DNA of 64,000 nt from the NCBI GenBank assembly GCA_026129405.1, contig JAHCID010000002.1:310001-374000 (forward strand), read 5' to 3'. The notes under the pieces are model-generated. The model worked only from the letters and a program-made list of their open reading frames with translations. It was not told the DNA's origin and did not search any database. Source of the DNA: a bacterium (GTDB taxonomy: Bacteria; Desulfobacterota; Binatia; DP-6). Made by a program: the position numbers and the translations under genes. How positions within the stretch are numbered: the first letter of the stretch is position 1; each line of letters begins with the position of its first letter. Shown piece after piece: positions 5,527 to 51,530 of this stretch.

Positions 5527-6750
5527 ATGAAAAGGACGTGGACGGCGGGAACGTGGCGGGGGGCGATCGGGGGACTGGCGGTGGGGCTCGCCCTGCTCGC
5601 GGCGGGCGTCGCGCACGCCGACGTGGGCGGCTGGGACTACCTCGTCGACAAGCTCGTCGCCGACGGCGTCCCGCGCGAGCGCGCCGTGCGCACGTTCTCC
5701 GATCCGCGCATGCCGGCGTTCGACGGCCTGCCCTTCGGGCTCGATCCGCGCGAGCCGACCTCCCGCTACCGCAACTTCCGCACCGCGGCCGCGGCCCAGG
5801 CGGCGCGACGCTGCTACGACCAGCACCTCGAGGTCCTGCGCGCGGCCGAGGTCACGCACGGCGTGCCGGGCACCGTGGTCGCGGCGATCATGTACGTCGA
5901 GACCGGCTGCGGGCGGAACGTCGGCACGAGCCGCATCCTGCACCGCCTCGCGCGCCTCGCGATGGCGAACGAGCCCGCGAACCTGCGCTGGAACATCGAG
6001 CGCCACGGCGCCGGCGATCCGGTCACCGTCGAGCGCGTGCGCGCGCGCGGCCGCTATCTCGAGGACACGTTCTATCCCGAGGTGCTGGCCACCTTCGCCG
6101 TCGCCGACCGCCTCCAGTACGATCCGCTCGAGATCCGCGGCTCCGGCTCGGGCGCGTTCGGCAACCCGCAGTTCCTGCCGACGAGCTATCTGAAGCACGG
6201 CCGCGACGGCGACGGCGACGGCCACGTCGACCTCTTCTCGACCGCCGACGCCGCCAGCTCCTGCGCGCGCTACCTGGCCTCGTTCGGCTGGACGCCGACC
6301 AGCACGGACGCCGAGAAGCGGCGCGTGATCTGGCACTACAACCGCTCCGATGCGTACGTCGACACGGTGCTGCTGCTCGCGCAGCGCATCGACGACCCGG
6401 ACGCCCAGATGGCCGCCCAGCAGCCCGCGCCCAAGCGCCGCGCGGCCGCGGCGAAGAAGGCGCCCACCGCCACCACCAAGCGCAGTGCGCAGAAGACCGG
6501 CGCGGCGAAGGCAGCCTCGGCGCCGGCGTCCGCCAAGTCGGCGGGCAAGACGGCGTCGGCCAAGCCCGCGTCCGCCAAGCCTGCGCCCGCCAGGACTGCA
6601 CCCGCGAAGGCCGCGCCTGCGAAGAGCAACACCGCCAAGTCCGCTGCCAGGACCGCTCCCAACGCCGGTGCCCGGGCCGGCGGCGCGTCCGCGCGCAGCG
6701 CGAAGAAGGCGCCCGCGGCGCCGAGCAAGACCGCGAGCGCCACGCCCTGA
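5527..6750 (+). CDS. MltB-type lytic murein transglycosylase with Ala/Lys/Pro-rich tail
   Basis: A 407-residue exported protein: signal peptide ending near AHA (residues 28-30), a lytic transglycosylase domain to about residue 295, then a roughly 110-residue tail of Ala, Lys, Pro, Thr and Ser. The domain resembles MltB/SLT family 3. E125 in YVETGCG is the expected catalytic acid, and GSGAFGNPQFLPTSY matches the family's glycan-binding segment. It would cleave peptidoglycan to 1,6-anhydro-muropeptides in the periplasm. The very basic tail is unusual and looks like the PAKA-type tails of DNA- or polyanion-binding proteins. Start chosen for the signal peptide and a GTGGAG site upstream. Confidence 0.87.
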   Translation: MKRTWTAGTWRGAIGGLAVGLALLAAGVAHADVGGWDYLVDKLVADGVPRERAVRTFSDPRMPAFDGLPFGLDPREPTSRYRNFRTAAAAQAARRCYDQHLEVLRAAEVTHGVPGTVVAAIMYVETGCGRNVGTSRILHRLARLAMANEPANLRWNIERHGAGDPVTVERVRARGRYLEDTFYPEVLATFAVADRLQYDPLEIRGSGSGAFGNPQFLPTSYLKHGRDGDGDGHVDLFSTADAASSCARYLASFGWTPTSTDAEKRRVIWHYNRSDAYVDTVLLLAQRIDDPDAQMAAQQPAPKRRAAAAKKAPTATTKRSAQKTGAAKAASAPASAKSAGKTASAKPASAKPAPARTAPAKAAPAKSNTAKSAARTAPNAGARAGGASARSAKKAPAAPSKTASATP

Positions 6751-6807
6751 GCCGCGCGCCGCGTCCGCGGCTTGACGCCTGCCGCGACGGAATGCTCGTA
6801 GGAGCGG

Positions 6808-8238
6808 GTGCGAGACGTGCTCGATCGGCTCGACCGTGCGCACCTGATCCACGGCTTCGGCTCGCCGGCCGTGGCCCGGCGCCGCGGCACGCTGCGACTC
6901 GTGCGCGGGCGCGGCATCCACGTGTGGGACGCGGACGGCAAGCGGTACATCGACGGTCTCGCCGCGCTGTGGAACGTCGGCGTCGGCCACGGACGCGGCG
7001 AGATCGCGCGCGCCGTCGCCGCGCAGACGCGCCGGCTGGCCTTCGTGCCGACGTTGCTCGGCTTCACCTCGGAGCCCGCGATCCGTCTCGCGACGCGGCT
7101 CGCTCGCCTGGCACCGCCCGGCCTGCGGCACGTGGTGTTCACGTCCGGCGGCTCGGAGTCGAACGAGACCGTGATCCGCCTCGCGCGCCTGTATCGGCGG
7201 CTGCGTGGCCAGCCGGACAAGATCGGCTTCGTCGCCCTCGAGGGCGCCTACCACGGCTCCTCGACGGGGGCCGCCAGCCTCACCGGGCTCGACAATTTCC
7301 ACCGCCACTACGGGCCGATGATGCCGGGCGTCCACCGCGCGCCGCGGCCGTACTGCTGGCGCTGCCCGCTCGGGCTCGCGCGTCCGGCGTGCGCGGTCGC
7401 CTGTATCGACGCGTTGGAGCGGGTCGTCGTCGAGGCGGGACCGGCGCGCGTCGGCGCGGTGATCGTCGAGCCGGTGCAGGGCGTCGGCGGCGTGATCGTA
7501 CCGCCGGCCGGTTGGTTCGAGCGCCTGCGCGCCATCTGCGACCGGTACGACCTGCTGCTCGTCGTCGACGAGGTGATCACCGGCTTCGGGCGTACCGGCA
7601 AGATGTTCGGCATCCAGCACACCGGGGTCGTGCCGGACGTGCTCGTCTTCGCGAAGGGCGTGACGAGCGGCTACCAGCCGCTCGGCGGCGTCATCCTGCA
7701 CGACCGGGTGTGGGACGTCCTCGTCGGGGCGGGGGAGGACTTCGTCCTGCACCACGGCTTCACGTACTCGGGCCATCCCGTCGCCTGCGCGGCGGCGCTG
7801 GCCAACCTCGACATCCTCGAGCGCGAACGCCTGGTCGCCGACGTGCGCCGCAAGGCGCCGCAGTTCCGCCGCCGGCTCGAGGCGCTCGGCGACCTGCCGA
7901 TCGTGGGCGAGGTGCGCGCGCGCGGGCTCATGGCGGCGATCGAGATCGTGCGCGAGCGGGCGTCGCGTGCGCCGTTCGCACCCGAGGACCGCGTCCCGTT
8001 GCGTATCCGCGAGGCCGCTCTGCGGCGCGGGCTCATCGTCCGCGCGAGCGGCGATCTCCTCGTCCTCTGTCCGCCGCTGGTGATCACCCCGGCGCAGATC
8101 GACGTGGTCGCCCGTATCCTGCGCGCGGCGATCGCCGAGGTCGCCGCGGAGCTGGTGGCGGGGGCGGACCCGGCGCCGCGGGCCGCCGCCATGCGCGCCA
8201 CGGGCGCGCGCCGCCGGCGCGCATCCGGCGCGCGATGA
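6808..8238 (+). CDS. Class III (omega) aminotransferase
   Basis: A 476-residue PLP enzyme of the class III aminotransferase family. D254 in LVVDEVITGFGRTG binds the pyridine nitrogen and K283 in FAKGVTSGYQ is the Schiff-base lysine; GSESNE is the phosphate-cup segment. It would move an amino group from an omega-amine or amino acid to pyruvate or a keto acid; the donor is unknown. Four Cys at residues 183, 186, 195 and 199 form a CxxC/CxxxC cluster also seen in some omega-transaminases. GTG 6808 is preceded by TAGGAGCG. The C-terminus has an Arg/Ala-rich extension of about 25 residues. Confidence 0.9.
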   Translation: MRDVLDRLDRAHLIHGFGSPAVARRRGTLRLVRGRGIHVWDADGKRYIDGLAALWNVGVGHGRGEIARAVAAQTRRLAFVPTLLGFTSEPAIRLATRLARLAPPGLRHVVFTSGGSESNETVIRLARLYRRLRGQPDKIGFVALEGAYHGSSTGAASLTGLDNFHRHYGPMMPGVHRAPRPYCWRCPLGLARPACAVACIDALERVVVEAGPARVGAVIVEPVQGVGGVIVPPAGWFERLRAICDRYDLLLVVDEVITGFGRTGKMFGIQHTGVVPDVLVFAKGVTSGYQPLGGVILHDRVWDVLVGAGEDFVLHHGFTYSGHPVACAAALANLDILERERLVADVRRKAPQFRRRLEALGDLPIVGEVRARGLMAAIEIVRERASRAPFAPEDRVPLRIREAALRRGLIVRASGDLLVLCPPLVITPAQIDVVARILRAAIAEVAAELVAGADPAPRAAAMRATGARRRRASGAR

Positions 8239-9414: not shown

Positions 9415-9577
9415 TGTCCCGAGCCCGAAGTTCGTCACCAGATCTCGGGCGATCTCACGCCGCCCGCCTGCGTTGCTCCTCCTCACCATGGCGACGGCCA
9501 TGCCTCGTCGTCGCGCCGCGCCGGGCGGCGCGATCCCACCCGATCCTCGGCAACGAACTTCGGACTCGGGACACTAG
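9411..9577. mobile_element. MITE-like element, 167 bp with about 25-bp terminal inverted repeats
   Basis: The left end reads CTAGTGTCCCGAGCCCGAAG and the reverse complement of the right end reads CTAGTGTCCCGAGTCCGAAG. The match continues for five more bases, giving 24 of 25 identical. Both ends carry CTAG, which could be a 4-bp target duplication around TGTCCCGAG repeats. The roughly 115-bp core has no credible ORF. The element sits exactly between two convergent genes, and its outer CTAGs provide both stop codons. A long stem-loop acting as a two-way transcription end is an alternative, but the loop is large for an intrinsic terminator. Confidence 0.6.
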
Positions 9578-10779
9578 AACGCCGCTTCGATGCCGACGAT
9601 CGGGATCGCCTCGGCGCGGAAGCCGTCGTCGTTGAGCGGGACGAGGACGCTGACGAAGCCGATCAGCGTGTCGCGCCAGAGGAGCGTACGCCCGCCGATC
9701 GCGAGATCGTAGAAGCTCGGCCGCCCGCGGCTGAGCCCGAAGACCGGCGCGTAGGTGATCGGCCCGTCGCATGCGCCGGTGGCCGGGTTGGCGCGACAGC
9801 GCGGCCAGTCGAAGGTGCCCGGCCCGCCGATCTTCGCGAACGGCTCGCGCGCGAGGAATGCGAGGCCCAGCGTCGCGCGGCTGCCGATGTGGAGGTCGAG
9901 GCCGAGCGAGGCGCGCGCCTGGCTGCGCGCGACGTCGTTCGTGTTGAAGTCGACGAACGCGTTCACGTGGCCGCGGATGCTGAACGGTCCACCGAGCGGA
10001 TACGCGCGCGAGGTCGCATAGAGCGCGGGGCTCACCTCGAAGACGCCGGTACCCTGGAAGTCGCCGCGGCTGCCCGTCGGGAAGCGCAGCTGGAGGCCCG
10101 CCGCGACCGTGCCGTGGTCGCCGTAGAGGAGGCGGTACTTGGCACGCAGGAGGATGTCGCCGATTCCGAAGTGGTCGAGCGCCTCGTCGTCCTGCTGGAG
10201 CGGTGCGCCGGTGGGCTTGAGCCTGAGCGCGAAGTCGAGCTCGGTGTAGAGCACGGGGATCGTGAGGTCGAGGTCGAGATCGTCGGTGAGCCCGACGGTG
10301 GCGCTCGTCGTCACCTGGTTGGTGACGATGCCGAGGGACAGCTTGGGCACGCGCACGGTGCCCTGGATGCCGCCCACGTCGGTGACCATCGGTGGATGCG
10401 TGTCGTGCAGGTCGTCGAGATCCATGCCGTCGATGGAGCGGAAGTCGATGTACGACCAGTTCATGCGGACGTTCCACTTGCCGCGACCGATCGTCTTCGC
10501 CTGCTCGACGAAGAGCTGGCCGAGGACTTCGGTTTCGCGCTCGAAGGCGCCGCTCGCGTAGTCGAAGCGGAAGGTGACGCCGGGCGAACCCGAGGTCACC
10601 GGCACCGCGCGCGACATCTGATCGGCGAGCAGGCGGCCGAGCGGGGAGAGGAGCGTGCGGACACGCTGGCCCGTCCGCGTGCGGGCCCGGAACTGGTCGC
10701 GCAGCTCGTCGGCCTGCGCCGGCGGCGCGGCGACGAGGCACGCGACGCCGAGCACGAGGACCGCCATGCGGCGTTTCAC
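9574..10779 (-). CDS. Predicted outer-membrane beta-barrel protein
   Basis: A 401-residue exported protein: signal peptide (cleavage near AQA), then amphipathic strands rich in Gly, aromatic residues and alternating polarity, ending in a C-terminal Phe. These are features of transporter-like outer-membrane barrels. Motifs such as DLDLTIPVLYTELDF and GLQLRFPTG resemble the phenol/meta-pathway outer-membrane family. The GTG start overlaps the TGA of the CHAT gene by 4 bp (GTGA), so the two are probably translationally coupled. The gene ends the sigma/anti-sigma/CHAT cluster. Its stop codon lies in the neighbouring inverted-repeat element. Confidence 0.82.
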   Translation of the reverse strand: MKRRMAVLVLGVACLVAAPPAQADELRDQFRARTRTGQRVRTLLSPLGRLLADQMSRAVPVTSGSPGVTFRFDYASGAFERETEVLGQLFVEQAKTIGRGKWNVRMNWSYIDFRSIDGMDLDDLHDTHPPMVTDVGGIQGTVRVPKLSLGIVTNQVTTSATVGLTDDLDLDLTIPVLYTELDFALRLKPTGAPLQQDDEALDHFGIGDILLRAKYRLLYGDHGTVAAGLQLRFPTGSRGDFQGTGVFEVSPALYATSRAYPLGGPFSIRGHVNAFVDFNTNDVARSQARASLGLDLHIGSRATLGLAFLAREPFAKIGGPGTFDWPRCRANPATGACDGPITYAPVFGLSRGRPSFYDLAIGGRTLLWRDTLIGFVSVLVPLNDDGFRAEAIPIVGIEAAF

Positions 10780-12926
10780 GACGGCTCCCGCAGCCCGCGA
10801 ATCTTCCAGGCGCCCGCGTTCTTCACCAGGGTTCCCGTGATGCGCACCTCGAGCCGCATCGTACGTCCGGTGCCGCCGTCGGTGAACGCGTCCAGGCGCG
10901 TGAACGTGGCGAGCGCCTCGTCGCCCTCGACGAGCACGTCGACGTCGTCGATGCGCACCGCGAGGTCGCCGGCGTTCGCGAAGTAGCGGTCGAGCGACGC
11001 CCGCTGGGCGTCGCTCATGGTCAGCTGGAGGGCGGCCAGGCGCTCGACGCTCTTGGCCTGGAGTGCCTCGGCGTAGCGGCCGAGCAGCGTGCGGATGGCG
11101 GATTCGTCGTCGTCGGGCGCCTGCGCAAACGCGACGCCGCCGTCGAAGAGCCACGAGGTGTCGGGGGCGGGCCGATCGGGGGTGGGCGGCGGCGTCGTGC
11201 CGGAGGTGCCGCCGGACGGCGGCGTCGGCTCGCCGAGCGTCTCGCTGAGGAGGCGGTACGCGCGCAGCGTCTCGGGTCCGCGGGTCGCGAGCGCCGCCTG
11301 GACCTGCTCGGCCGTCGGCGACAACCCGAGGGCGCGCAGCGCCTGGAGCGCGAACTCCGCTTCGAGGTGCATCAGCTCCGACTCGGGCCCCTGCACCCGC
11401 TCGCTCGCGACGAGGATGCCGCTGGCGGGGTCGATCACCTCGAGGTCGAGGGTCACGAGCGACGCGTCGACCGAGACCGTGGCCGAGAGCAGCCGCGTCA
11501 TGCCGAGCGCCTCCGCCGCCTCCAGCTCGCCGATCTGGCGCTTGGTCCGCACGAAGTCGATCTTCTGGCGCGACACCACCTGCATGGGCGGGAACTTGCT
11601 CAGGATGGTGATGAGCCCGTCGCGCGTCAGCTCGCGCATCCACGCCGGCGCGGCGCCGCGGGCCTTCACCTCCATGACGCCGATCACGAGCGGGGACGCC
11701 GGCCGCACCCGATGGCGCCACAGGACCCCGCCGGCGATCGCGATCACGAGAAGCAGGAACGTGAGCCAGCGCCGCCGATCGCGCAGCGCCGACGCACCGG
11801 CGCCGCGGGCCGGGAGGGCGCCGGGCGTCGGCGCCTCGACGACGACGGGTAGCGCCGCCGGGGTCTCGTCGTCGGGGGGCGCGAGCAGCCGCTGCCCGGG
11901 ATTGCCGTAGAGGACGAACGACAGCCAGCTCGGCGAGCGCTCGCAGTCGACGTCGGCACGGCAGCCGGCGCGCGCGTGGCGCAGCGACTCGCCCAGCGTG
12001 GCGCCACCGAGGACCTGCGCGTAGAAGCGCTCGGCGAGCGGGGCGGCATGGCGGTCGCTGACCTCGCACAGGGTGCCGACGACGCCCAGCGCACCGCCGA
12101 AGAGGAAGCCGTTGGCGACGCTCGAGACGGTCGCCTCCCAGGCGCCGCCGTCGCCTTCGCCGCCGGTGGAGGCGCCGCGTGCGCTGGCGCAGCCGTTGAG
12201 GAACACCAGCGGCCGGCCCGCGAGGTTCGACTCGACGACGTGCGGCGAGAGGACGCGCTCGTCGGCGAGCAGCAGCCCGGGCGTGCCCGCGGCGTCGGCG
12301 ACGACGTGCCCCGCCCAGTGGATGAGCGAGAAGCCTTCGCCGAGGTAGGCGCTGACGGCGTCGAACGTGGCCAGGCGATCGGCGATGCAGACGACGTCGC
12401 AGCGCGCCTCCAGCGCCTCGCAGATGGCGTCGGCCTCGCGGCGCACGAACGGCAGGTCGCCGCGCGGGTCGGAGGCGATGACGAGGGCGCGCGGCCGCGC
12501 CCCTGCAGGCCCCGCGCTGCCGAGCGCCGCGACGGGGCGATCGAGCAGCAGCCGCTTGCCGAGGCCGTAGCGCAGCCCCCAGAACTCCTCGTCGTCGTGG
12601 AGCAGCTCCCAGGGCAGCCCCGTGAGCGAGGTGCTGACGAGCAGCGGTCGTCCGGCCAGCGCGCGCAGCTTCGGCCGCAGGCGCTCGGGGACGAGGGTGC
12701 GATAGAGGACGGCGCCACGCGCCTGCGCCTCGCGCGCGAAGCCGGCATGCTCGGCTCCGTGCAGGAGCTCGGCCGCGCCGTCGACGAGGGCCCGAAGCGT
12801 CGCCTCGTCGCACGGCTGGCGCACCTCCTCGTGCAGCGGCTCGCCGAGGTCGTGCTCCGGTATGTCGAGACGCCATCGCAGTGAACCGCCGACGGCCTCG
12901 ACCCACAGAACGGGGACGAGCCGCAT
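10776..12926 (-). CDS. Membrane-anchored CHAT (caspase-like) protease with TolB/FlgO-like and NTF2-like domains
   Basis: A 716-residue protein. Residues 95-345 form a CHAT caspase-like domain, with H207 in HWAGH and C246 in FLNGCAS as the expected His-Cys dyad. One transmembrane helix spans about residues 387-403. Residues 410-560 resemble the TolB-N/FlgO fold, followed by a Pro/Thr linker and an NTF2/SnoaL-like domain from about residue 595. The topology implies a cytoplasmic protease and periplasmic C-terminal domains, or the reverse. ATG 12926 is used; an in-frame ATG at 13058 exists and neither has a clear ribosome site. The gene sits 182 bp after the anti-sigma gene and is coupled to the barrel gene. 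Target unknown. Confidence 0.85.
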   Translation of the reverse strand: MRLVPVLWVEAVGGSLRWRLDIPEHDLGEPLHEEVRQPCDEATLRALVDGAAELLHGAEHAGFAREAQARGAVLYRTLVPERLRPKLRALAGRPLLVSTSLTGLPWELLHDDEEFWGLRYGLGKRLLLDRPVAALGSAGPAGARPRALVIASDPRGDLPFVRREADAICEALEARCDVVCIADRLATFDAVSAYLGEGFSLIHWAGHVVADAAGTPGLLLADERVLSPHVVESNLAGRPLVFLNGCASARGASTGGEGDGGAWEATVSSVANGFLFGGALGVVGTLCEVSDRHAAPLAERFYAQVLGGATLGESLRHARAGCRADVDCERSPSWLSFVLYGNPGQRLLAPPDDETPAALPVVVEAPTPGALPARGAGASALRDRRRWLTFLLLVIAIAGGVLWRHRVRPASPLVIGVMEVKARGAAPAWMRELTRDGLITILSKFPPMQVVSRQKIDFVRTKRQIGELEAAEALGMTRLLSATVSVDASLVTLDLEVIDPASGILVASERVQGPESELMHLEAEFALQALRALGLSPTAEQVQAALATRGPETLRAYRLLSETLGEPTPPSGGTSGTTPPPTPDRPAPDTSWLFDGGVAFAQAPDDDESAIRTLLGRYAEALQAKSVERLAALQLTMSDAQRASLDRYFANAGDLAVRIDDVDVLVEGDEALATFTRLDAFTDGGTGRTMRLEVRITGTLVKNAGAWKIRGLREPS

Positions 12927-13108
12927 CACCGGACGGATGGCTGCCGCATTCGGGAGATGCCGGATCCGCGCGGCGAGGCGTCGGCGCGCGGCCAGCGGAG
13001 CTCTGTCGGTCCTGCTCGGTCGAGCACGAACGTCGTCTCGGAGGACGGCACCTAGCATCGGATGGGGGGCTGGGTCCACCGCGTGCGCCAGGCCGCGGGC
13101 CACGCGTG

Positions 13109-13993
13109 TCACGCGCCGAGCTCGACGTCGAAACGGAGCTTGAAGCGGAGCGCCTGGTCCCTCTCGTGGATCTCGAGGACGTAGCGCCCCGGCCGCAGTC
13201 CCTTCACGAGGACCGGGGTGACGTCGTGAACGGTGTAGCGCGCGACCAGCTCGGTGCGATCCGCGAGCAGCTCGCGCAGGTGGACGGAGAGCCGATGGGG
13301 CGTGGGGCCCGAGACCGAGAGCGCCAGCCCGACGCGCTCGCGGCCCGCCGGCTCGAGCGCCATCTCGGCCCACAGCCCGGAGTCGGCGAGGGCGAACTGC
13401 ATGTGCTGGCCGAGTGCAGCGTGCGGCAACGTCGCGGCCTCGCCGCGCATCGCGCCGCCCCCGGCGGGGGCCAGGACCGCGAAGCCGTCGGGGACCTCGG
13501 TGAACGCGGCGGCGGCCTGACGAACGCCGACGACGATGCGGCCCACGATCTCGCGCACGGTCTCGCCCGCGCGGCCGGCGACGTCGCGCCAGGGTGCCGC
13601 GGCAGGAGCGGCGATGGCGTCTCCGAGCTCGCCGCGAGCGGCGATGGCTTCGACGACCACGAGCTCCGCGAGGCGGCCGCGGCACGCGAGGCACCAGCCG
13701 AGATGGCGGGCCAGGTCGGGATGGCCGTTGCGGATGGCGACGGCCTCGAGGCCGACGAGCTGCCACAGGTCGTCCCGGGTCTGGCCGCAGCCGAAGAGAG
13801 CCGCCATGCGATCTGCACCGGGCGGGGCGGCACCGGCCGCCAGCTCGTGCGCCAGCCGCAGGGCCTCCCAGCAATCCGAGCAATGCGCCACGTGCTCGCG
13901 AGCGGCGCTGAAGGCGGCGGCCGTGGGCCGGGGGAGGGGGGCGTCCCCCGGCCTGGCACCCAGCAATGCGGAAATGGCGTCTTCGTGCGTCAC
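13109..13993 (-). CDS. Soluble protein with two HxxxCxxC anti-sigma-type zinc motifs
   Basis: A 294-residue protein with no transmembrane segment. It has two copies of the zinc-binding anti-sigma motif H-x3-C-x2-C: H34/C38/C41 and H97/C101/C104. A helical middle and a beta-rich C-terminal domain (residues 160-294) follow. The gene lies 51 bp downstream of the sigma-factor gene on the same strand, so I infer that it binds and restrains that sigma factor. The repeated motif in a soluble protein is unusual. The GTG start at 13993 is well supported: GGAGGT lies 7 nt upstream. Confidence 0.8.
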   Translation of the reverse strand: MTHEDAISALLGARPGDAPLPRPTAAAFSAAREHVAHCSDCWEALRLAHELAAGAAPPGADRMAALFGCGQTRDDLWQLVGLEAVAIRNGHPDLARHLGWCLACRGRLAELVVVEAIAARGELGDAIAAPAAAPWRDVAGRAGETVREIVGRIVVGVRQAAAAFTEVPDGFAVLAPAGGGAMRGEAATLPHAALGQHMQFALADSGLWAEMALEPAGRERVGLALSVSGPTPHRLSVHLRELLADRTELVARYTVHDVTPVLVKGLRPGRYVLEIHERDQALRFKLRFDVELGA

Positions 13994-14044
13994 GGCCGTA
14001 CCTCCCTGACGGGCGTTCCCGGGGTCATGTGTCGGGACAAACCC

Positions 14045-14629
14045 CTAGTCCGTGTCATCGAAGGCCGTCCGGATGCCCTTGCGGATGCGTTTGAGCTGCC
14101 CGGCGACGCCGTCCCGGCTGAGGGACTGGCGGGCGGCGATCTCCTTCTCGGGGAGGTCCTCGACGAACCGCAGGCGGGCGACCTCCAGCCGCTGGCAGGT
14201 CTCGGCCACGATCTCGAGGCGCTCCTTCAGGCGGCGCATCTCCTCCGGGGTGGGCAGGTGGGAGGGCACGCGCTCGCGCAGCGCCTCCTCGGCGTCGTCC
14301 TCCGGGCCGCCGATCCAGACGCGTCGCTTCTGATGACGCTGCCGATCGCGGGCGAGGTCGATCACGGTGTGGACGAAGATGCTGCGTGCCCAGGCCTCGA
14401 TCCGGCTGGCGTCGTGGAGGCGCTCGAGCTTGTCGGAGGAGACGAGCTTCAGGAGCGCGTCCTGCACGGCGTCCTCCACGTCCGCGCCGAGGGACGGATA
14501 ACGTCGCTGCCCGAGCGCGAGCCACTGGCGGCGGAACGCGTCGAGCACGTCGGGCAGCCGCGCGTCGGGCGTATCCGACTGCGCGGAGCGCAGGATAGCG
14601 AGGATCGCTTCGGGCGGCCCGTGGCGCAC
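14045..14629 (-). CDS. ECF-type sigma-70 family RNA polymerase sigma factor
   Basis: About 194 residues. Region 2 contains DVEDAVQDALLKL and IEAWARSIFVHTVIDLARD, and region 4 contains LPEKEIAARQSLSRDGVAGQ with a helix-turn-helix. There is no region 3, as expected for ECF sigma factors. The start is uncertain: GTG 14629 gives a family-typical length, while ATG 14731 is in frame, adds 34 residues and lies closer to a candidate ECF promoter. It heads the cluster of anti-sigma-like protein, CHAT protease and outer-membrane barrel. It is divergent from the large FG-GAP gene, which could be a target. Confidence 0.85.
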   Translation of the reverse strand: MRHGPPEAILAILRSAQSDTPDARLPDVLDAFRRQWLALGQRRYPSLGADVEDAVQDALLKLVSSDKLERLHDASRIEAWARSIFVHTVIDLARDRQRHQKRRVWIGGPEDDAEEALRERVPSHLPTPEEMRRLKERLEIVAETCQRLEVARLRFVEDLPEKEIAARQSLSRDGVAGQLKRIRKGIRTAFDDTD

Positions 14630-14851: not shown

Positions 14852-18613
<3,762 letters not shown>

Positions 18614-49628: not shown

Positions 49629-51530
49629 ATGACGACGATCGGACGGTGGCTCGGCGCCAGCTGGGCGCTGCTCGCCATGGCCACGGGTGCGCTGGCGGCC
49701 GAGCAGACGCTGCTCGGCAACGCCTTCACGGTGAAGAACCCGACCGGCGCCAACGCGAAGCGCGTCGTCGTCGGCGTCGCCAAGGAGAAGCCGAGCAACA
49801 ACACGCTGGTCGGCGATCCGACGCTCGCCGGCAGCGCGGGCGGCGCGATCCTCGAGCTGTTCGTCGACGGCGACGGCCCCACCCAGCAGCGCCTCGTCCT
49901 GCCGCAGGGGATCGACGGTGCGGGCAAGCCGTTCTGGCGCGCCACCGGCACCACCGGGTTCCAGTACAAGGACGCGAAGGGCGTGAACGGCCCGGTGAAG
50001 GTCGTGCAGCTGAAGCGGACGACGAGCGGCCTCTTCCAGATCAAGATCGTGCTCGGCGGCAAGTACGGCGCGATCGACGTGGTGCCGGCGAACCCCGGCA
50101 CGGGCGGCTGCTTCGCGCTCCAGATCGGCCAGACGGGAGCCAGCGGTGATCGCTACAGCGCGGAGTTCGGTCCCACCAGCGCGATCACGAACGGCGGGAC
50201 GAAGCTCTTCAAGGCGTCGAAGCCGTCGGCCGAGGGCGTGTGCCCCGAAGTCCTCCCGCCGACCACCACCACCACCACGAGCACGACGACCACCACGGCG
50301 GAGCCGCCGACCACCACGTCGACGACGGAGCCGGAGCCCACGACGACCACCACGTCGACGACCGAGCCCACCACGACCACGACGACCACGACCACGTCGA
50401 CGACCGAGCCCACGACGACGACCACCACCACCACGTCGACGACGCTCGAGCCGACCACGACCACGACCACGAGCACCACCACGACGACGCTCGAGCCGAC
50501 CACGACCACGATCGTCACCACCACGACCACGCTGGAGCCGACGACCACGACGTCGACGGCGCCCGGTCCCTTCTGCGGCAACGGCATCCGCGAGGACTAC
50601 GAGGCCTGCGACGGCGCCGACGCGGCCGCCTGCCTCGGCGCCTGCACGGCGTCGTGCGACTGCGCGCCGCCGCCCAAGAAGATCAGCGTCGCCGGCGACA
50701 GCATCTCGCAGGGCTTTGCCGCCGACTGCACCTCGGGCGGCATCGGCGGCGCCATCTGCCTGCTGGCCGCGGACAAGCCGCAGTACAGCTGGTTCAACGG
50801 CACGCACGCCTCCATGAACTCGATCCACAAGCGCTACCTGGCGATCAACCCGGCGGTGGCGTCGCAGCGGCAGTCGGTCTCCGGCGCCGAGATGCGCGGC
50901 GGCAGCAACAGCTTCGCGGCGCAGGCGGCCGGCATCCTGGCTCAGGTCCCGGTGCCGGACCACGTCGAGGTGCTCCTCGGCGGCAACGACATCTGCAACC
51001 GCGACTGCGTGGATCCGGCCAGCTGCGGCAACCCGATGTACACCGATCAGCAGTGGCGCGATGCCGTGCGCGCCGGCCTCAATCCGCTGGTGACGAACCT
51101 GCCGCTGGGCTCGACGATCTTCCTCCTCGGCATCCCGCGGGTGCAGGACCTGCGCGAGGTCGGGCTGGTGAAGACCGGCACCACCTGCAACACGCAGTGG
51201 AGCACGTTCAGCATCTGCCGCATCGTCACCGACGGCGGCACGCTGAACGGCGAGACCTACGCCGTGCGCCGCGCCGGCGTCGGCGCGCGCCAGCGGCGTT
51301 ACAACGAGATCCTGCGCGAGGAGGCGCTGGCGTACGACTCGAACGCGAACGGGCTCAACCCGCGCGGCATCGAGGTCGTCGTCGACTACGTCGACGAGGA
51401 GACGCCGTCGGTCGGCACTACGCCGTTCGAGCCCGGCGACATCGACGCGGCGGACTGCTTCCACCCGAGCATCGCCGGGCAGAACAAGATCGCCGAGGGC
51501 GTCTGGACCATCAATCCGGACCGCCCGTAG
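49629..51530 (+). CDS. Secreted SGNH-family hydrolase with long Thr-rich linker
   Basis: A 633-residue exported protein: signal peptide (ALA), an N-terminal beta-rich domain of about 180 residues, a 99-residue Thr-rich linker, then a Cys-rich CGNG...EACDGAD motif and an SGNH/GDSL hydrolase. S358 in AGDSISQG is the nucleophile; GGNDICN carries the oxyanion Asn; D609 and H612 in DCFHPS complete the triad. It should be an extracellular esterase, lipase or carbohydrate deacetylase; the acyl donor is unknown. The linker probably displays the domain from the surface. ATG 49629 gives the signal peptide. Confidence 0.88.
   Translation: MTTIGRWLGASWALLAMATGALAAEQTLLGNAFTVKNPTGANAKRVVVGVAKEKPSNNTLVGDPTLAGSAGGAILELFVDGDGPTQQRLVLPQGIDGAGKPFWRATGTTGFQYKDAKGVNGPVKVVQLKRTTSGLFQIKIVLGGKYGAIDVVPANPGTGGCFALQIGQTGASGDRYSAEFGPTSAITNGGTKLFKASKPSAEGVCPEVLPPTTTTTTSTTTTTAEPPTTTSTTEPEPTTTTTSTTEPTTTTTTTTTSTTEPTTTTTTTTSTTLEPTTTTTTSTTTTTLEPTTTTIVTTTTTLEPTTTTSTAPGPFCGNGIREDYEACDGADAAACLGACTASCDCAPPPKKISVAGDSISQGFAADCTSGGIGGAICLLAADKPQYSWFNGTHASMNSIHKRYLAINPAVASQRQSVSGAEMRGGSNSFAAQAAGILAQVPVPDHVEVLLGGNDICNRDCVDPASCGNPMYTDQQWRDAVRAGLNPLVTNLPLGSTIFLLGIPRVQDLREVGLVKTGTTCNTQWSTFSICRIVTDGGTLNGETYAVRRAGVGARQRRYNEILREEALAYDSNANGLNPRGIEVVVDYVDEETPSVGTTPFEPGDIDAADCFHPSIAGQNKIAEGVWTINPDRP
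50262..50558 (+). repeat. Thr-codon repeat tract of about 300 bp (interdomain linker)
   Basis: Roughly 99 codons, mostly acg/acc, with an irregular superrepeat of Glu-Pro-Thr and Ser-Thr-Thr blocks (TSTTEPT/TLEPT). It encodes a disordered linker in the SGNH protein. The unit is prone to slippage, so its length may vary among strains. Confidence 0.88.

Follow-up and report, generated by a model that had tools for sequence, protein, structure and literature searches.

The 64,000-nucleotide stretch of DNA analysed here (the window) carries four minus-strand genes in the order sigma factor, zinc-finger (ZF) protein, CHAT protein and barrel, with a fifth gene divergent from the sigma factor:

14045-14629, minus strand: ECF sigma factor of 195 codons, GTG start at 14629 (Pfam and NCBIfam)
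13109-13993, minus strand: soluble ZF protein, a putative anti-sigma factor (alignments, profile and predicted structure)
10776-12926, minus strand: predicted transmembrane CHAT protease, ATG at 12926 (Pfam, alignments and structure model)
9574-10779, minus strand: PF13557-like outer-membrane beta-barrel with a signal-peptide-like start (Pfam)
14852-18613, plus strand: secreted FG-GAP repeat protein with 13 repeats, divergent from the sigma gene

Coordinates and profile matches bear out the four same-strand genes and their order as given in a preliminary description of this DNA, made from the sequence alone. The coupling of the barrel to the CHAT gene by GTGA, claimed there as well, is also seen in the sequence: the GTG start of the barrel gene (PF13557, 26 bits) overlaps the CHAT stop at 10776-10779. 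The sigma factor scored above the cut-offs of Sigma70_r2 and Sigma70_ECF (Pfam) and of sigma70-ECF (NCBIfam); its region 4 scored under the Pfam cut-off, with the NCBIfam model above its own. It consists of regions 2 and 4 only, as ECF sigma factors do, and its orthologues in two related loci, L041 and L038, are likewise 195 codons long. In both of these loci, as in the window, an FG-GAP-type secreted gene lies divergent and upstream of the sigma gene, and its product is possibly a surface partner of the system or a target of the sigma factor.

A scan of genome contigs with the ZF protein alone found no relative, so a CHAT alignment served as the query instead, and the 80 best CHAT loci from that scan were kept. 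The ZF gene was found directly upstream of CHAT in 44 of these 80 loci by profile searches, and 39 of them had the sigma gene as well; since the 80 are the best matches to the window's own CHAT family, this proportion does not tell how often CHAT genes in general have such neighbours. The preliminary description would have been refuted by homologous loci in which CHAT is never near a sigma or zinc-finger gene, and these counts show the opposite. In four of the five ZF-CHAT loci without sigma, no more than 250 bases separate the ZF gene from the start of the contig; in the fifth (L146), 2.7 kb of upstream sequence held no sigma match. Elsewhere in the 80 flanks, sigma and ZF matches were nearly absent, being restricted to L118 and L140, each with a sigma-ZF pair on the reverse strand, and to L146, with a single ZF match on that strand. 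The carriers are labelled as Omnitrophota, Nitrospirota, Desulfobacterota-type lineages, Schekmanbacteria and others. A reverse search in about 980 genomes gave a concordant picture, with a CHAT gene adjoining 13 of 14 full-length ZF homologues. In the remaining case (L164:5347-11371), the place of CHAT after the sigma and ZF-beta genes is taken by a gene for a secreted protein of 1455 residues that bears the caspase-like motif DACHAG. Desulfonema magnum, too, has a cassette of this kind (L161). Chance would hardly account for the gene order, since further genera of the family share it, as do other phyla, though there the barrel is missing. The distance matrices of sigma, ZF and CHAT correlate (r 0.71-0.86), which fits joint inheritance and is no proof of contact.

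The ZF protein is made up of a helical ZAS half (residues 1-165), a linker (164-184) and a C-terminal Ig-like beta domain (197-290). It contains the following sites:

13871-13894, minus strand: first zinc motif, H34xxxC38xxC41, with H3 (sequence and alignment A1)
13682-13705, minus strand: second zinc motif, H97xxxC101xxC104, with C69 (alignments A1 and A4)
13445-13447, minus strand: codon of R183, the proposed P1 residue of a cut between R183 and G184 (alignment, model and motif statistics)

In both motifs an upstream Cys/His ligand accompanies HxxxCxxC, as is typical of ZAS proteins, giving the sets C69-H97-C101-C104 and H3-H34-C38-C41. The two anti-sigma HxxxCxxC motifs reported earlier are therefore both present here, but only the second is the widespread ZAS motif; the first was seen only in this lineage and in genome G340, and most ZF proteins have a single zinc motif. 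The family profile matches the solved anti-sigma factors RsiW (5.7e-4) and 3hug (3.4e-4). Pfam zf-HC2 did not match the window's ZF protein taken alone and does match one of its relatives.

The two zinc motifs of the window's protein, together with the fact that soluble ZAS anti-sigma factors often sense oxidative stress (PMC8999054), might suggest that ZF senses redox state or metal through its ligands and frees sigma alone, CHAT being a downstream effector or a protease that clears spent inhibitor. We regard such a scenario as rather improbable: most members have one motif only, and a few members of the cassette, as seen in the homologues L105:4485-5141 and L107:3615-4334, have lost the zinc ligands and yet retain the linker arginine and the beta domain.

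All 42 ZF proteins in one alignment share R183 and Y271; L108 and L121 are omitted from this alignment, on which the invariance depends. H97, C101 and C104 come close to invariance without reaching it. The pattern [hydrophobic]R[GST] occurs in the linker of 45 of 53 ZF proteins, against a mean of 13.7 and a maximum of 24 in 2000 shuffles; this test overstates the surprise, because the pattern was picked after inspection of the alignment, and the invariance of R183 is the cleaner observation. In the predicted structure, R183 falls within a stretch of pLDDT<50 (164-184), ahead of the confident beta domain (197-290). The linker motif is absent from L168, a divergent ZF homologue without a CHAT neighbour. 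The invariant arginine gives the proposed cleavage of ZF by CHAT, already suggested in the preliminary description, more support than it had before. Several points count against such a cut: confidence in the ZF structure model is modest (mean pLDDT 67.5), the ZF protein of L042 is without a clear linker motif even though a CHAT gene adjoins it, and L164 keeps the arginine without an adjoining CHAT, a membrane CHAT being encoded elsewhere in the same genome. R183 might instead be a structural or binding residue. The sigma factor was also considered as a CHAT substrate and rejected; among 39 sigma factors, no column reaches 90% arginine, which leaves the inhibitor as the better substrate candidate.

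The CHAT protein comprises a CHAT domain (residues 1-350), a transmembrane helix (~381-402), a TolB-N/LpoB/FlgO-like region (~410-560) and a SnoaL/NTF2-like C-terminus, with these sites and domains:

12306-12308, minus strand: H207, predicted catalytic histidine (invariant in alignments A3 and A5)
12189-12191, minus strand: C246, predicted catalytic cysteine (invariant in alignment A5)
12054-12056, minus strand: D291, candidate S1 aspartate for a P1 arginine (invariant in alignments A5 and A9)
11721-11786, minus strand: transmembrane helix, residues 381-402 (AF2 model; similar position in relatives)
11247-11699, minus strand: TolB-N/LpoB/CsgG/FlgO-like domain, predicted periplasmic (profile and structure comparison)
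10788-11114, minus strand: SnoaL/NTF2-like domain, predicted periplasmic (Pfam)

The CHAT domain matches PF12770 with 96.6 bits against a cut-off of 24, and its AF2 model has the separase/caspase-like fold of CHAT peptidases, the structural matches being separase (Z 25), Csx29 (Z 24), DdvA (Z 22.7) and Arg-gingipain (Z 21). The residue numbers H207 and C246 proposed earlier are correct for the ATG at 12926. Moreover, the preliminary description had made its reading depend on retention of this His-Cys pair in relatives, and the dyad is present in all 44 cassette CHAT proteins, including that of L096, where it appears as HYTGH and NAC. D291 is present in almost all of them and, by counting of profile positions, lies within about one residue of the aspartate of separase that receives the P1 arginine. 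In separase, this pocket aspartate binds the P1 guanidinium, so that the cut falls after arginine (PMC10317155). According to the alignment, an aspartate occupies the D291 position in SAVED-CHAT and DdvA, and not in Csx29. From the match in position to the separase aspartate, we infer that D291 could receive a P1 arginine in CHAT as well.

The tight gene linkage and the correlated divergence described above (r 0.71-0.86) require only that the proteins bind each other, and some soluble ZAS anti-sigma factors are released by conformational change (PMC8999054). CHAT could accordingly control sigma by binding ZF, acting as a scaffold or through conformational release, with proteolysis secondary or absent. 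We consider this unlikely, given that the His-Cys dyad is intact in 44 of 44 cassettes and D291 in almost all, and that the zinc ligands vary more than the arginine of the linker, a region modelled with low confidence.

Of the 44 cassette CHAT proteins, 40 show a single transmembrane helix, mostly about 160-240 residues past the catalytic His. By the charge rule, 30 of these 40 helices favour an N-in orientation, which would place the CHAT domain in the cytoplasm; against the cleavage model count the other 10, which show no N-in preference by net charge, and the window's own protein, in which both flanks of the helix are basic. Behind the helix, the TolB/FlgO- and NTF2-like domains of the preliminary description hold up by Pfam, profile and structure matches: this region matches the CsgG/FlgO region of relatives in profile-profile comparison (E 1.7e-6), and Foldseek pairs it with TolB-N and LpoB by structure. 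Eight cassette CHAT proteins were scanned with Pfam; they have TPR and/or CsgG, FlgO, LpoB and FlgT_C matches behind the helix, and in four of them a class III cyclase domain precedes CHAT.

CHAT proteases are found in defence systems, and Foldseek matches the window's CHAT to Csx29 and SAVED-CHAT. One could therefore imagine the cassette as a defence or cell-death module in which the main substrate of CHAT is another protein, and sigma and ZF only regulate CHAT expression. This seems to us very unlikely: no recognised defence genes adjoin the cluster in the window, PADLOC returned only a weak partial match to CHAT, and the predicted periplasmic CsgG/LpoB/TPR regions, together with the barrel, point to the envelope.

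Among six further genomes of the family, four carry the ZF gene (44-52% identity). The complete four-gene order is found in L041 (genome G299), whereas L038, L039 and L040 hold upstream parts of the cassette on short contigs; in L063, from the same genome as L038, the end of CHAT is followed by the barrel. The barrel is a member of the cassette within this lineage only. A divergent version of the locus (L042:7230-14238, genome G340) has a sigma-like gene with only a weak region 2, a double zinc-finger protein and a CHAT protein with Clp_N repeats, followed by a P-loop protein and others.

The half of the CHAT protein formed by the transmembrane helix and the FlgO- and NTF2-like domains also occurs in paralogues. 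In the window's own genome (contig C1), L043:7404-8966 bears it behind a TIR-like N-terminus, the latter scoring 17.9 bits, below cut-off; this gene is divergent from a barrel paralogue (6090-7265), with no sigma or ZF gene adjoining. In G299, the N-terminus of one paralogue (L069:1489-3138), situated close to a barrel paralogue, is cyclase-like, and that of another (L066:256-1755) gave no Pfam match to cyclase. At least 7 of the 12 barrel paralogues of the family are on a contig near an NTF2-domain match. With one and the same half found behind such varied N-termini, it looks as if the outer-membrane side were constant and the cytoplasmic output half varied across the paralogues. Sigma and ZF genes were seen only beside the CHAT form of this set, which is a small one.

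The ZF and CHAT genes are separated by a gap of 182 nt, within which a further feature was noted:

13049-13078, minus strand: conserved element TGGACC-N17/18-TAGGTG with TG before the second hexamer

Three genomes of the family have exactly one copy of this element each, every time in the ZF-CHAT gap. Judging from its composition and position, it is possibly a separate extended -10 promoter for CHAT and the barrel, and a single transcript from sigma to barrel is therefore not assured. A scan for consensus sigma-70 promoters and terminators found none at its threshold, which demanded more matches. The link from envelope through protease and regulator to sigma, as the preliminary description had it, is partly supported: gene linkage and dyad retention speak in favour, while the lineage-specific barrel and the possible separate CHAT-barrel promoter speak against its full extent.

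On balance, we lean towards the cassette being an envelope-responsive protease switch, in which CHAT cuts the soluble ZF protein after R183 and thereby frees the ECF sigma factor. In such a switch, ZF would keep the sigma factor in an inactive state. The CHAT protein would be anchored in the inner membrane so that its separase-like domain faces the cytoplasm, while its TolB-N/FlgO-like and NTF2-like region would lie in the periplasm and, in this lineage, be coupled to the barrel of the outer membrane. CHAT would be activated by some change in the periplasm or at the barrel and would then cut ZF after R183, in the linker between the sigma-binding helical half and the beta domain. Finally, the freed or destabilised ZF fragment would release sigma.

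Release of an ECF sigma factor by a protease is already known from RseA, from CalpL/CalpT/CalpS and from Csx29-Csx30, and the layout in the window would be a variation on it. The proposed switch resembles RseA/DegS-RseP and FecR-type signalling in leading from an envelope signal through anti-sigma proteolysis to the release of an ECF sigma factor. In those systems, however, it is the anti-sigma factor that spans the membrane, whereas here the protease is predicted to span it and the putative anti-sigma factor is soluble. The arrangement of sigma factor, soluble ZF and transmembrane CHAT was not found described in the literature searched, which covered only a minority of subscription journals.

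The type III-E CASP/Craspase system likewise has a protease (Csx29, TPR-CHAT), an inhibitor (Csx30) and an ECF sigma factor (CASP-sigma) as neighbours: Csx29 cuts the sigma inhibitor Csx30, and the cut falls between residues 427 and 429, which its authors do not appear to describe as an arginine site (PMC10028731). The two CHAT domains have a common fold (Z 24), but Csx29 is without an equivalent of D291, and the window's protease is, unlike the CASP one, predicted to be membrane-anchored. No CRISPR-like array was seen in positions 1-30000 of the window, and no cas gene was recognised among the neighbours of the cluster. The ZF profile gave no sequence match to Csx30 chains in the PDB; for the C-terminal domain of ZF, the matches from Foldseek and VIA were all general beta-sandwich proteins, a fold so common as to be uninformative on kinship with Csx30.

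DdvS/DdvA of Myxococcus xanthus (8rot, 8rw5, 8rlz) also combines an ECF sigma factor, a ZAS anti-sigma factor and a CHAT domain, with a weak profile match between its ZAS and ZF. In DdvA, CHAT is part of the transmembrane anti-sigma factor itself; in the window, by contrast, ZAS and CHAT are encoded by separate genes, so that no single polypeptide unites ZAS, transmembrane helix and CHAT, and the putative anti-sigma factor is soluble. CHAT, carboxypeptidase and subtilase proteins occur in the genomic context of ECF54, for which proteolytic control was proposed partly because of the CHAT proteins nearby (PMC8999054); unlike the system described here, ECF54 is proposed to act without an anti-sigma factor.

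What is known of CHAT proteases comes mainly from CRISPR and cell-death settings, and for the majority no substrate is known; the cassette points to a likely substrate for one of them and to where the cut probably falls. If our reading is true, it adds an envelope-to-sigma layout in which the protease, and not the anti-sigma factor, resides in the membrane, and gives a hint at the origin of CRISPR-linked CHAT-sigma modules. It is tempting to go further and to suppose that sigma-ZF-CHAT represents a widespread, undescribed form of envelope signalling, built on a separase-like protease in the membrane that cleaves a soluble anti-sigma factor after a conserved arginine, as well as the chromosomal source of the CHAT-inhibitor-sigma modules of type III-E CRISPR and DdvA; we put this forward as a speculation that is more doubtful than probable. 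Far from the cluster, positions 50260-50558 contain imperfect ACGACC/ACCACG-type repeats, which probably encode a threonine-rich linker of a secreted protein.
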